64,000 nt of DNA from Halobaculum roseum (GTDB lineage Archaea > Halobacteriota > Halobacteria > Halobacteriales > Haloferacaceae), in NCBI RefSeq assembly GCF_019880245.1, contig NZ_CP082286.1, forward strand, positions 2,560,521-2,624,520, written 5' to 3'. A program made the translations under genes and the position numbers. Below the pieces are notes generated by a model. The model ran no database searches. It had not been told where the DNA came from and saw only the letters and a list, made by a program, of their open reading frames with translations. Each line of letters starts with the position of its first letter. Within the stretch, counting starts at the first letter, position 1. Shown here piece by piece: positions 33,373 through 39,798 of the stretch.

Positions 33373-34638
33373 TTATACGCCCGTGGAGTAGCGGAGAATG
33401 CCGGCGACGCCGCCGAAGGCGTCCATGAGCTGGTCGCCCTTCTCGAAGTCGGTGGAGATGAACTTCGTCTCGGTGCCGCGCTGTTCTGCGATCTCGATGA
33501 GGTGCTCGACGATGTCCTCGCGCTCGCCGGCGTCGTTCGCCGAGACCGTCTCGCCGCACTCCCCGCACTCGTGGTCGGGGGTCGAGTGGCGGCGCTCGAC
33601 GACTTCGCGCTCCTCGTGGCCGTTCGGGCACTCGTAGGTGATCACGTCGTGGTGGAGGTCCTCCGAGAGGAGGAGGCGCTCGACCGAGCCCATGATCAGG
33701 TTGCGGCGGGTCTCCTCGAAGCCGTAGGTGGCCTTGTCGCCGCTGTGGAGGTTCTCGAAGAACTCCTCCATCTCCCGCTTGTCCTTCATCACCTCCTGGT
33801 CGGCGAGCACGTCGCTCGCGGCGTCGACCAGGTCGTACAGCCCCGACTCGTCGGTGTAGGCCACGTCGAACTTCCCGATGACGTGGTCCTGCAGCTCGTG
33901 GTGGAGGTAGTCGCCGTCGAGGAACTCGTCCTTCGTCGGCGAGGGGCCGCCCACGAGGATGCCCTCGAGGTCGTGGCGCTTGTCCACCATCAGGTCGTTC
34001 GCCATCCCCGCGACCTCCTGATAGAAGTTGTCGATGGCCTCCAGGCGCAGGCGGGCGAACCGCTGTGCCGACTGGCCACCCTTCCGCTGTTTCCCGGGCA
34101 CGAGCGAGGAGGCTGACTTGACCGGCTCGACGCGCTTGCCCTTGAGCCAGCCGACGTTCGCCTCCCGGCGGTCGAGGACGATGAGCCCGAACAGGCCCTT
34201 GTCGGTCATCATGTCCTCCAGCGGCCCGGTCAGGAAGTTCGAGTCGCAGTGGTAGCGGAACGACTGGATCGGCTCGGGTGGCGACTCCAGCACCTTCGTC
34301 ACCATCTCGGTTTGTCCGCCGCCGGAGTCGACCGCGCCCGAGAAGATCACGATGCCGTTGTCCGGCGGGTAGACGTCGTAGTAGCGCAGGCGGTCCTTGA
34401 TGCTGGTGAGCGCGTCCTGCACGGCCGTCCGGGTCTGCTTGGACTTGATGTTGGACGCCTCGCTGTGCTCCTGGGTGACGTGGGCGACCACGTCGGAGAT
34501 CTGCTTGTCGTCGGGGATGTAGATCGTGACGAGCTGGGTGCCCGAGCCCTCGAAGTCGTCGAGCTCGTCGAGGACCTTCCGGAACTCGTACTTCCGGCGG
34601 TCCTCGCTCGCCTGCCCCTCCTGGGCGTCGCTGCTCAT
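33373..34638 (-). CDS. prf1: Peptide chain release factor aRF1
   Basis: A 421-residue archaeal/eukaryotic class I release factor. All key motifs are present: NIKS (63-66) and YHCDSNF (129-135, the YxCxxxF motif) for stop-codon reading, and GGQ (187-189) for peptidyl-tRNA hydrolysis. The C-terminal domain has a zinc-finger-like YECPNGH plus CGECG. It recognises all three stop codons. A TATA-like GGTACTTACCCC (minus strand, 34661-34672) lies 29 bases upstream. It is divergent from the MinD-type gene. Confidence 0.96.
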   Translation of the reverse strand: MSSDAQEGQASEDRRKYEFRKVLDELDDFEGSGTQLVTIYIPDDKQISDVVAHVTQEHSEASNIKSKQTRTAVQDALTSIKDRLRYYDVYPPDNGIVIFSGAVDSGGGQTEMVTKVLESPPEPIQSFRYHCDSNFLTGPLEDMMTDKGLFGLIVLDRREANVGWLKGKRVEPVKSASSLVPGKQRKGGQSAQRFARLRLEAIDNFYQEVAGMANDLMVDKRHDLEGILVGGPSPTKDEFLDGDYLHHELQDHVIGKFDVAYTDESGLYDLVDAASDVLADQEVMKDKREMEEFFENLHSGDKATYGFEETRRNLIMGSVERLLLSEDLHHDVITYECPNGHEEREVVERRHSTPDHECGECGETVSANDAGEREDIVEHLIEIAEQRGTETKFISTDFEKGDQLMDAFGGVAGILRYSTGV

Positions 34639-34810: not shown

Positions 34811-36115
34811 ATGCCGAAGATCTACGCCGTCGCGAGCGTGAAGGGGGGTGTCGGCAAGACGACCACGGCCGCCAACCTCGCGGCCACGCTCGCGGCCGCC
34901 GGCTACGAGACCGTCGCGGTCGACGCCGACCTCGGATCGGCCAGCCTCGGCCCGTCCCTGGGCGTCGACCCGGAGGGGACGACGCTGCACGACGTGCTCG
35001 CGGGCGAGGCCGACCCCGCGGAGGCGACCCGCGAGGGGCCACACGGCCTCGCGGTGCTCCCCGGGGGCGACAGCCTGGAGCACTTCCGGAAGGCAGAGCC
35101 GAGCGAGATCGTCGACGTGCTGGAGGAGATCACGGGCGTCGACTACGTGATCGTCGACACGGGCGCCGGGTTGACCCACCAGACGGCGCTCCCGCTGTCG
35201 GTCGCCGACGGCGTCCTCCTGGTGTCGACGCCGACGCGCGACGGACTCGCGAACACCCGGAAGACCCAGGACCTCACCGAGAAGCTCGAGGGCGAAGTCG
35301 TCGGCCTCGCGCTCAACGAGGCCGAGGGCGACGAGGACACCGGCGACATCGACGTGCCCGTGTTGGGCGCGATCCCGGACGACCCGCTGGTCGCCGAGGC
35401 GCAGGCGGCCGGCAGCCCCCTCTCGGCGTACGGCCCCGGCAGCGACGCCGCGGCGGCGTTCCGGTCGCTGGCGTCCTCGCTCACCGGCGAGCCGATCCGG
35501 CCCGCGGTGACGCCGGACAACTCGGAGGCGACGCCGGAGGACCCGGCGTACGAGGCGGCAGCCCCCGACGAGGCACCCGAAGCCGCGCTCGACCTGCCCG
35601 AGGTCGACGAGGAGGCGGACTCGGCGGATGAGACACCGGAGGAGACGCTCACGGAAGCCGAGTCGGTCGTGGAAGCCGAGTCGGACGTGGAGGCCGACGC
35701 CGAAGCGGAAGCCGACGCGGAAGCGGAAGTCGACCCGGACGCGGACGCCGAAGCGGAAACCGACGCGGACACGGAGGTCGACCCCGAGCCGGATGTCGAC
35801 GACGCCGTCATCCTCGACGACGAGCCCGCCGGCGACGACGCCGAGGACGACGCGGCCGTCGCGGCCCGGACGACGGTGCTCGACGAGGCGGAGTACGACG
35901 CCCGCCGGAACGACGACGAGGACGAGGTCGCGACCGTCGAGGACGCCGAGTCGGGCGAGTCCGCCGACATCGGCGAGGACGTGATCCCCTTCGCCCAGCA
36001 GAGCAAGGAGCGCACGGAGGAGGCGAAACAGCAGCGCGACGGCGACGACGCCGACGACGGGGACGACGGCCGCGACGGGGGCGGCTTCCTCGGTCGGCTG
36101 TTCCGGTCGTCGTAG
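34811..36115 (+). CDS. minD4: MinD4-like cell-positioning ATPase with long acidic tail
   Basis: A 434-residue protein. Residues 1 to about 230 are a MinD/ParA ATPase with the deviant Walker A KGGVGKTTT (11-19) and a VIVDTGAG switch. About 190 residues of Glu/Asp/Ala repeats (EAEADAEAEVDPDAD type) follow, and the protein ends in GGGFLGRLFRSS. That end resembles the membrane-targeting helix of bacterial MinD (GFLKRLFGG). In Haloferax volcanii, MinD4 oscillates and positions archaella and chemosensory arrays, and its extended C-terminal tail is a known feature. Orthology is inferred from the architecture and the prf1-argS neighbourhood. Confidence 0.8.
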   Translation: MPKIYAVASVKGGVGKTTTAANLAATLAAAGYETVAVDADLGSASLGPSLGVDPEGTTLHDVLAGEADPAEATREGPHGLAVLPGGDSLEHFRKAEPSEIVDVLEEITGVDYVIVDTGAGLTHQTALPLSVADGVLLVSTPTRDGLANTRKTQDLTEKLEGEVVGLALNEAEGDEDTGDIDVPVLGAIPDDPLVAEAQAAGSPLSAYGPGSDAAAAFRSLASSLTGEPIRPAVTPDNSEATPEDPAYEAAAPDEAPEAALDLPEVDEEADSADETPEETLTEAESVVEAESDVEADAEAEADAEAEVDPDADAEAETDADTEVDPEPDVDDAVILDDEPAGDDAEDDAAVAARTTVLDEAEYDARRNDDEDEVATVEDAESGESADIGEDVIPFAQQSKERTEEAKQQRDGDDADDGDDGRDGGGFLGRLFRSS

Positions 36116-36171
36116 CCCGCCGCGGGAGGCGGATCGGGAGTTTCTTTTCGTCGCCGCCACCTCTCGGGAGT

Positions 36172-36312
36172 ATGAGCGAAGCAGGCAACGACTCCGTGCC
36201 GATCTGGTGGATCCTCGTCTTCATCGTCCTCGCGCTCGGGCTGGGCGCTATCGCGGTGCTCTCGGTCGGCGGGAGCCTGATCGATCCGGCGATGCTGCTG
36301 CCGCTGGCGTAG
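36172..36312 (+). CDS. 46-residue single-TM protein between minD4 and argS
   Basis: A complete small ORF, MSEAGNDSVPIWWILVFIVL followed by a Gly/Ala/Leu-rich stretch and ending AMLLPLA. A 10-residue polar N-terminus, one hydrophobic helix of about 23 residues (11-33), and a second weaker hydrophobic stretch at the C-terminus. It starts 56 bases after the minD4 stop on the same strand. A T-rich GTTTCTTTTCG (about 36140-36150) lies 26-30 bases before the ATG and could be its promoter or the minD4 terminator. No homologue was recognised. Co-location with minD4 suggests, without proving, a related role. Confidence 0.6.
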   Translation: MSEAGNDSVPIWWILVFIVLALGLGAIAVLSVGGSLIDPAMLLPLA

Positions 36313-36367: not shown

Positions 36368-38128
36368 CTACATCGACTCGGGCGCCTCGACCCCGAGCAC
36401 GTCGAGGGCGTTGGCGATCGTGTGGCGCGCGGCGGCGACGAGCGCGAGGCGCGCCTCCCGGGTCGCCTCGTCGTCGGCCGTGAGCACCGGACACTCCCGG
36501 TAGAAGGCGTTGAACGTCTCCGCGAACTCGCGGGTGTAGGTGGCGATCCGGTGGGGTTCCAGGTCGTCGGCGGCCTCCTCGACGACGGCCGGGAACCGCG
36601 CGACGACCTTCAGCAGGTCGCGTTCCTCGGGCGTCGACAGCGCCTCCGGATCGACGGCGGCGTCGGGGGCCAGCCCCTCCTCGCCGGCTTCCGAGACGAT
36701 CCCGCAGCAACGCGCGTGGACGTACTGGACGTACGGCGCCGACTGCGCCTCGAAGTCGAGCGCGCGGTCCCACTCGAAGGTGATCGACTTCGTCGGCTGC
36801 TTGCTGACGATGTCGTAGCGGACGGCGCCGATGCCGACCTGCCGGGCGATGCGTTCGACGTCCTCCTCGCTCAGGTCGTCGTCGCGGATGCGGTCGTCCA
36901 TGCGCGACTCCACCTCCTGGCGGGCGCGGTCGATCGCCTCGTCGAGCAGGTCGTCGAGGTTCACCGCCGTGCCAGCGCGCGTGGACATCTTCCCCTCGGG
37001 GAGGTTCACGTACGAGTAGAACATCGACTGCAGGCGGTCGGTGTCGTTGCCGAGGAGCTCGAGCGCGGCCTGGAGCTGGCCGGCCTGGAGCTTGTGGTCC
37101 TCGCCCAGCACCGTCACCGCGCGGTCGTAGTTCTCGAACTTCCACTCGTGGTGCGCGAGGTCCCGCGTCGTGTACAGCGAGGTGCCGTCCGAGCGGAGGA
37201 ACACGAGCTTCTTCTCGTAGCCGTGCGCCGAGAGGTCGACCTGCCAGGCGCCCTCCTCGAGGACGGACTCGTCGAGGTCCTTCAGGCGCCGTGCCACGTC
37301 GTCGGAGGAGCCGTCGCGGATGAAGCGCGTCTCCTTGACGAACTCGTCGAACTCGGCGGGCAGGCGCGCGAGCGACGCCTCCATCCCCGAGAGCACCGTG
37401 TCGACGACCTCGCCGACGCGCTCATAGGTGTCCTCGTCGCCCGACTCGAGCCCCTGGAGGATCGAGGCGATCTCCGCCTCGGCCGCCTCCACCGTCTCCT
37501 CGTCGCCCTCCTCCAGCACCTCGTTGCCCTTGCGGTAGTAGCGCACGAGGTCGTAGTCGGGCTTGTCGCGGGCGGGCTCGGGGAGGTCGGACTCGTCGAA
37601 CGTCTCGTAGGCCCACGTGAAGATCGCCATCTGTCGGCCGGCGTCGTTGACGTAGTAGTGGCGGTCCACGTCGTAGCCGGCGTACTCGACGGCGTTGGCG
37701 ACGGCGTCGCCGATGATGGGGTTGCGCGCGCGGCCGACGTGGACCGGCCCCGTCGGGTTCGCGGAGGTGTGCTCCACGACGACGGACTCGTCCTTCCGCG
37801 GGAGTCGGCCGAACTCGGCGTCGCGGGCGGCGTCGAGCGTGTCCGCGAGGTAGGCGTCGTCGACGAAGAAGTTCACGTACGGGCCGCTGGTGTCCACGCG
37901 CGCGAGGTACTCCGTGGCGGCCACGTCGACCGCGTCGGCGACCTCGCCGGCGACCTGCGGCGGCGGCGCGCCCGCCTCGCCGGCTAACCGGAAGGCGACG
38001 CTGGAGGCGAGCGTCGCGTCGACGCCGTCGGGCGGGTCCTCGATGCCGAGGTCGTCGGTCGGATAGCCGAGGTCGGCGAGCGCGTCCGTCAGCGCCGCCG
38101 CCACGGCCGACCGGAACTGTCTGAACAT
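36368..38128 (-). CDS. argS: Arginyl-tRNA synthetase
   Basis: A 586-residue class I synthetase. Domains: an N-terminal Arg-S additional domain (1 to about 95), the HIGH-type motif in [16 protein letters not shown] (121-136), a KMSK-like GKMSTRAG, and an anticodon-binding helical bundle at the C-terminus ending in [14 protein letters not shown]. It charges tRNA-Arg. Convergent with the minD4 cluster. Antisense frames spanning it are shadows. Confidence 0.96.
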
Positions 38129-38371: not shown

Positions 38372-39127
38372 ATGAGCACTTCCACGACGGCCGTCGGCCA
38401 CGACGAGGTGGCCGCGCTGAAGACGGTCGCGCTGCGGGGCGGCCTCCGCGAGCCGGTGAAGGTCTCCTGTTCGACGCTCGGCGAGCGCCTCGACGCCTCC
38501 AGTCAGACGGCCTCGCGACGGCTCCAGCGGCTCGAGTCCGCCGGACTGCTCGATCGCGACGTCGTCGGCGACGGGCAGTGGGTGACGGTGACAGACGCCG
38601 GCGAGCGTCGCCTGCGCGGGGAGTACGCCGACTACCGTCGCCTGTTCGAGGGCGAGGCCGGCCTCTCGCTGTCCGGGACGGTCACCTCCGGGATGGGCGA
38701 GGGACGCCACTACATCCAGCTGTCGGGCTACCACGAGCAGTTCGTCGAGCGCCTCGGCTACGAGCCGTTCCCGGGCACGCTGAACGTCGAGCTCTCGGAG
38801 GCGGCCGTCCGCGCCCGCGCGGGGCTGGACTCCGTCGACGGGATCCCGATCGACGGCTGGGAGGACGAGGAGCGCACGTTCGGCCCGGCGACGTGTTACG
38901 CCGCCGAGGTGCGCGCCGACGGCGACGCGTTCGCGCCGGCGCACGTGATCGTGCCCGAGCGCACCCACCACGACGAGGACCAGCTCGAACTCATCGCGCC
39001 CGCGAAGCTGCGCGAGGAGCTGGATCTGGCCGACGGCGACGAGGTGCGCGTGCGCGTCACCGACGCCGAGCGCGCCGACGAGCCCGCCCCGTCGGCCGGG
39101 GGCGCTGACGCCGGGGGGTCGGCGTGA
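38372..39127 (+). CDS. rbkR: Bifunctional wHTH regulator / CTP-dependent riboflavin kinase
   Basis: A 251-residue protein. Residues 10-80 form a winged helix ([20 protein letters not shown]). Residues 95-225 are the archaeal DUF120 riboflavin kinase, with [14 protein letters not shown] (111-124) and [12 protein letters not shown] (129-140). It phosphorylates riboflavin to FMN using CTP, and the HTH represses or activates riboflavin genes in response. The first 30 bases upstream hold the palindromic operator. Its stop overlaps the ribB start. An acidic, Gly/Ala-rich tail ends the protein. Confidence 0.92.
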
Positions 39128-39798
39128 GCCGGCAGGCCGGCCGGCTGGACCGCGCGCTCGCCGCCTTCCGCGCTGGCGAGCCGGTGCTCGTCCACGACTT
39201 CGACGACCGCGAGGGGGAGACGGACCTCGTGTACCCCGCGGGCGCCGTCGAGCCGGCGGACGTGACGCGCATGCGCAACGACGCCGGCGGGCTGATCTGC
39301 GTGGCCGTCTCCGACGCCGTCGCCGACGCCGCCGACCTCCCGTTCCTCGAGGAGCAGATCGACCACCCGGCGGCCGCGAGCCACGACCTCGCGTACGACG
39401 ACCGCTCGTCGTTCTCGCTGCCGGTGAACCACCGCGACACCTTCACCGGGATCACCGACGACGACCGCGCGCTGACGATCACGGAGCTTGCCTCGATGGC
39501 CTCCGCCGTCGAGGCGGGCGTCGAGTACGGCCCCGACGAGTTCGCCGCCGAGTTCCGCGCGCCCGGCCACGTCCACGTGCTCCGGGGCGCCCCCGACGGG
39601 CTCTCGGACCGACTGGGGCACACCGAGCTGGGGCTCGCGATGGCCGCGGAGACGGGCAACCCGCCCGCCGCGGTCGTCTGTGAGATGCTCGACGACGAGA
39701 CCGGCCGGGCGCTGTCGACCCGGGCGGCCCGCGAGTACGCACAGCGCCACGGCTTCCCGTACGTCGAGGGCGAGGAGCTGGTCGAGGCGCTGCGGTAG
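39124..39798 (+). CDS. ribB: 3,4-dihydroxy-2-butanone 4-phosphate synthase
   Basis: A 224-residue RibB. It carries [13 protein letters not shown] (27-39, the acidic metal and substrate loop) and [10 protein letters not shown], as in other archaeal enzymes. It converts ribulose 5-phosphate to the four-carbon riboflavin precursor. It begins with GTG 39124 overlapping the rbkR stop by 4 bases, so both are made from one mRNA under the palindromic operator. Confidence 0.92.

Follow-up and report, generated by a model that had tools for sequence, protein, structure and literature searches.

A conserved single-pass membrane microprotein encoded beside haloarchaeal minD4, probably not a MinE-like partner

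Introduction

Does a 46-codon reading frame lying directly after a minD4-like gene encode a real protein and, if so, does that protein work with MinD4? The frame was found in a 64,000-nucleotide stretch of the Halobaculum roseum genome (NZ_CP082286.1, positions 2,560,521 to 2,624,520), which we call the window. In Haloferax the Walker motifs of MinD4 are dispensable for its oscillation, which has been suggested to track a different, unknown oscillator, and MinE has no known counterpart there (PMC11621097). A literature search on HVO_0321/0323/0324 found nothing.

Results

The microORF and its neighbours

The microORF occupies positions 36172-36312 on the forward strand and is complete, running from ATG to TAG with 46 codons and the product MSEAGNDSVPIWWILVFIVLALGLGAIAVLSVGGSLIDPAMLLPLA. 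Exactly 56 nt separate it from the stop codon of the minD4-like gene (34811..36115, forward strand), which encodes a 434-aa P-loop ATPase with a deviant Walker A motif (KGGVGKTT), a long acidic tail, and the amphipathic C-terminal sequence GGFLGRLFRSS. The peptide chain release factor gene aRF1 (33373..34638, reverse strand; TIGR03676, 532 bits) is divergent from minD4, and the arginine--tRNA ligase gene argS (36368..38128, reverse strand; TIGR00456, 485.5 bits) is convergent with the microORF. This gene order, with aRF1 and argS on one strand flanking minD4 and the microORF on the other, is the usual one at microORF loci. By eye, the ORFs at 38372-39798 resemble a gene for a winged-helix archaeal riboflavin kinase and, after it, ribB (DHBP synthase). 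AlphaFold2 predicts a single confident helix for the microprotein (residues 11-31, pLDDT about 97), followed by a short C-terminal helix, and the conserved core reads VPxWWxxxFxxLALGxGAxxVxxVGGSL. Both the coordinates and the model agree with the initial annotation, which had described a complete single-TM micro-ORF on the same strand, 56 bases past the MinD4-like gene.

The neighbouring ATPase scores 183 bits against the TIGR01969 cutoff of 201.75, that is, below threshold. In a tree of 110 MinDs it groups with the MinDs of aRF1/argS loci, apart from the other paralogues. Gene order and the long tail are our basis for identifying it, provisionally, with Haloferax MinD4 (HVO_0322). The length of the acidic tail is very variable between lineages, with MinD4 ranging from about 240 to 735 aa.

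Conservation and selection

The length of the frame is uninformative in itself, because 43 ORFs of at least 30 aa overlap the same 6 kb; we count the microORF as a gene because it is conserved. Among the matches listed, relatives at E <= 2e-5 occur in 96 of 148 family genomes, and others are found in several further haloarchaeal families; the closest named relatives are from Halobaculum species. Across 12 sequences from different genera, 15 core residues are invariant. The conserved positions are P10, W13, F17, L20, L22, G23, G25, A26, G33 and G34, of which W13 and G33 are unchanged in 74/74 sequences. For 11 Halobaculum genomes (54 pairs, first 40 codons), a mean dN of 0.051 and a mean dS of 0.396 give a dN/dS of about 0.13, and differences from the window microORF fall 23/15/75 at codon positions 1/2/3. 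The initial annotation had proposed a cross-genome comparison and a Ka/Ks test as checks, and both come out in favour of a protein under purifying selection. Family f2 carries at the same place a shorter TM protein of 33-36 aa (for example MATDNSISTGWLILYVLLALGLLYGVLAFVGAL), probably a member that has diverged (HMM E 1e-4 to 0.07).

The region is GC-rich and full of short ORFs, and a T-rich tract lies upstream of the microORF, features expected if the frame were a chance ORF covering regulatory or terminator sequence in the minD4-argS interval. That non-coding reading is extremely improbable, and we reject it: dN/dS is about 0.13, W13 and G33 do not change, and the frame is kept across families and also away from minD4. 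Judged on sequence conservation, the microORF is very likely a genuine gene, and we regard it as an anciently inherited haloarchaeal single-pass membrane microprotein under purifying selection. No Pfam or NCBIfam model matches the microprotein above threshold, so no curated family covers it. The best PDB match is at chance level (E 0.16), Pfam FixP_N (the N-terminal helix of CcoP) reaches E 0.058, which we take as a lead only, and we found no plasmid or phage copies.

A predicted promoter of its own

Upstream of the microORF, at 36132..36148 on the forward strand, we find a predicted BRE/TATA-type promoter, GATCGGGAG TTTCTTTT, its T-rich part lying 24-31 nt ahead of the ATG. In an alignment of upstream regions anchored on the ATG (76 distinct microORF relatives, with 75 distinct upstream sequences), the A/T content peaks at -27/-26 (0.93 and 0.89) and a BRE-like AACGGGAAG spans -40 to -32; an A stands at -10 and a T at -1. 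BRE and TATA elements at these distances are the haloarchaeal promoter layout, with the transcript starting at or next to the ATG. The element thus predicts a separate leaderless transcript for the microORF. TATA-like elements also precede the microORF at loci without minD4 (L092, L095). Since this predicted promoter is conserved, transcription shared with minD4 would be unnecessary, though some read-through from minD4 may occur.

MinD4 and the microORF are separable

A MinD4-like gene directly precedes the microORF, in the same orientation, in 30/30 of the first family loci and in 32/33 of the named genome loci. In the Haloplanus-like genus g24 (L016, L023, L030), argS is gone from the locus and the microORF is still beside minD4. 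(In two whole genomes of this genus, G024 and G046, argS is not found at E 1e-120; a different arginyl-tRNA synthetase may be in use there.) The two genes also occur apart, in both directions. In g66 (G230, G292), G299, G275 and the MAG L054, aRF1 and argS flank the microORF and minD4 is missing from the locus; in G230, G292 and G299 the best MinD matches checked fall within a different paralogue group, and G275 has a single MinD match that is weak and partial. Conversely, minD4 is present without the microORF in Natrialbaceae-like and Haloarcula-like genomes and in g2, g8, g29, g41, g58, g64 and G161, and in Halorubrum and g11 MinD4 has been relocated and the microORF is absent. In Halorubrum, g11, G176 and G192 the microORF did not travel with the relocated minD4.

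The 116 loci we tabulated fall into five classes. Both genes are present in 56 and neither in 12, and MinD4 alone in 31. The class with the microORF only has 6, wrongly including L107, where MinD4 adjoins the microORF; the class with a relocated MinD4 has 11, in which six copies were examined directly and the other loci assigned by genus. The microORF likeness at L198, where the ATG start is missing, is doubtful. Altogether, MinD4 occurs without the microORF in at least seven lineages and the microORF without MinD4 in at least four. The two are separable in evolution, as judged from these genomes, and since each occurs without the other in several lineages, an obligate partnership is excluded. 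In Natrialbaceae-like genomes the interval between minD4 and argS is occupied not by the microORF but by a conserved lipoprotein-like gene, MERRKILLGSGAALATVLAGCSS... (loci L123, L124, L125, L150, L152, L154, L155, L156, L158 and L160).

MinD4 ends and the cytoplasmic tail of the microprotein

The last ten residues of MinD4 are often amphipathic; those of Natrialbaceae-like MinD4s end SSAITEAES instead. By a simple pattern, an amphipathic C-terminal membrane-targeting end (e.g. GGFLGRLFR) is found in 61/72 MinD4s beside a microORF and in 20/37 MinD4s without one, and lineages whose MinD4 is without the targeting sequence are mostly without the microORF as well. A MinD4 that usually has its own targeting end has no obvious need of a further anchor, which weakens the initial proposal of a membrane anchor. 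A substitute anchor for those MinD4s that do not carry the sequence is ruled out, as Natrialbaceae-like MinD4s are without both. The proposal of an activator fares no better. Activators of the MinE/ParB type are expected to carry a conserved basic finger on their cytoplasmic part, and the N-terminal tail of the microprotein has any K/R in 12/76 sequences only, with no basic residue conserved.

A related helix in cytochrome oxidase clusters

Weak, recurrent side matches in Haloferax and Halorubrum genomes led to one uncharacterised membrane protein of about 150 aa (alignment A2), encoded for example at L193:847-1323 (reverse strand) and L192:805-1260 (forward strand) beside haloarchaeal cox genes, with coxB and coxA adjoining. 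No Pfam or NCBIfam model was found for this oxidase-cluster family. The microprotein helix matches TM2 of this protein with an hhalign probability of 94.9-95.3 (E 2e-8 to 5e-8), an E-value that carries some look-elsewhere effect since the relative was chosen because it matches, and is 50-53% identical to it over 32 columns. Both have the pattern P-x2-W-x3-F ... LG-x-GA-x2-VL-x-VGG with equal spacing, which places P10, W13, F17, G23, G25, A26, V29, G33 and G34 of the microprotein in register. As a control, 300 column shuffles score at most 22.4 against 43.9 for the real comparison, and the reversed helix scores 16.2. Reciprocally, a search with the oxidase-cluster profile recovers the window microORF at a genome-wide E of 1.7e-6, and the same locus in many other genomes. 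We conclude, from profile comparison, that the microprotein helix is homologous to TM2 of the oxidase-cluster protein. The rest differs: the oxidase-cluster protein has several TM helices and lies beside coxA/coxB, and the microORF has neither that architecture nor that location.

No co-occurrence of the microORF with the 150-aa protein was found: in g9, g19 and g21-g24 only the microORF is present, and in Halorubrum only the 150-aa protein. Given this lack of co-occurrence, we read the shared helix more as a sign of common ancestry than as a pointer to a shared partner. The relative has basic loops before TM2 and after TM3, which suggest an N-in/C-out orientation for the helix. Its own predicted fold is uncertain (mean pLDDT 65.9). 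There is also a weak alignment between the oxidase-family profile and the N-terminus of CoxA-like frames of 580-619 aa, which the first two helices of the 150-aa protein weakly resemble.

Discussion

What does the microprotein do? Our preferred explanation, held tentatively and at somewhat less than even confidence, is that it is an independent accessory single-pass membrane protein, with a link to respiration as the best guess. It would be made from its own leaderless mRNA, and its helix would span the membrane N-in/C-out, with 8-10 acidic residues on the cytoplasmic side and the GGSL/LP end facing outwards. By packing against another helix through the LALGxGA face, it could serve a membrane protein complex as an accessory or stabilising subunit. 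Since its helix is related to that of the oxidase-cluster protein, the best single guess for that complex is a respiratory one (haem-copper oxidase). Its position beside minD4 would then be mostly inherited gene order (aRF1-minD4-microORF-argS), not partnership. Against a respiratory role, the microORF lies outside any oxidase cluster and shows no co-occurrence with the 150-aa protein, homology over 32 TM residues may be functionally meaningless, the relative is itself uncharacterised, and a link to MinD4 would also explain the adjacency in most lineages with both genes. A function in some other membrane complex or in a stress response, related neither to MinD4 nor to respiration, is possible though rather doubtful. 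Both the neighbourhood and the likeness to the oxidase helix would then be functionally uninformative, as fits a gene that is separable from MinD4, that does not accompany the oxidase-cluster protein, and whose database matches amount to no curated family and a chance-level PDB hit; a helix homology that is reciprocal and well above its shuffled controls does not fit so well.

The initial annotation had proposed a partner of MinD4. The adjacency behind that proposal is upheld, same strand and order being kept in nearly all genomes with both genes; the partnership itself is put in question by the separability of the genes and the predicted promoter. In its weaker form, the microprotein would be a non-essential, losable accessory of MinD4 where both are present, a membrane modulator of MinD4 binding, polar caps or oscillation. 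In its favour, the microORF does stay by minD4 when argS leaves, and the oscillation, with no need of Walker motifs, has been suggested to follow some unknown oscillator (PMC11621097). Both genes are also missing from the locus in several lineages, but one deletion of neighbours would give the same joint absence. MinD4 without the microORF, the microORF without MinD4 (including G275, with almost no MinD homologue), a predicted promoter of its own, a MinD4 with its own targeting end, and a short cytoplasmic part lacking a conserved basic residue all stand against this accessory role, and we consider it unlikely. The microprotein is probably not the missing MinE-like partner of MinD4, because it has its own predicted promoter, is lost and retained independently, and has a helix related to one of the oxidase clusters. 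More speculative still, and quite improbable, is that in lineages with both genes it is a membrane-embedded cue that MinD4 follows. It would then have been recruited from an oxidase-type helix and, unlike MinE, would be an ATPase-independent component of the archaeal pole-to-pole oscillator.

What is new here is a well-supported, uncurated family of small membrane proteins across haloarchaeal families. It extends to Haloferax species closely related to the genetic model Hfx. volcanii, and the question of a MinD4 partner becomes directly testable, with reasons to expect a negative answer. More generally, when a gene has its own promoter and is lost independently of an interesting neighbour, their conserved synteny says little about partnership.

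Like MinE of Escherichia coli, the microprotein is small and encoded beside a MinD. Unlike MinE, it has a TM helix instead of a soluble topological-specificity (dimer) domain, the conserved basic residues that contact MinD are absent (K/R in 12/76 tails), and its presence is not tied to that of its MinD, MinD4, as that of a MinE-type regulator would be. There is also a likeness to CydX, CcoQ and ba3 subunit IIa, single-TM accessory subunits of terminal oxidases, with which it shares size, a single helix and a packing face of small residues. Unlike those subunits it is not encoded with an oxidase here, and searches of Pfam and PDB found no significant sequence match to them. HVO_0596, encoded after minD2 in Haloferax, is another conserved gene immediately downstream of a haloarchaeal minD; its mNeonGreen fusion is diffuse and its deletion gives no shape or motility phenotype (PMC11588486).
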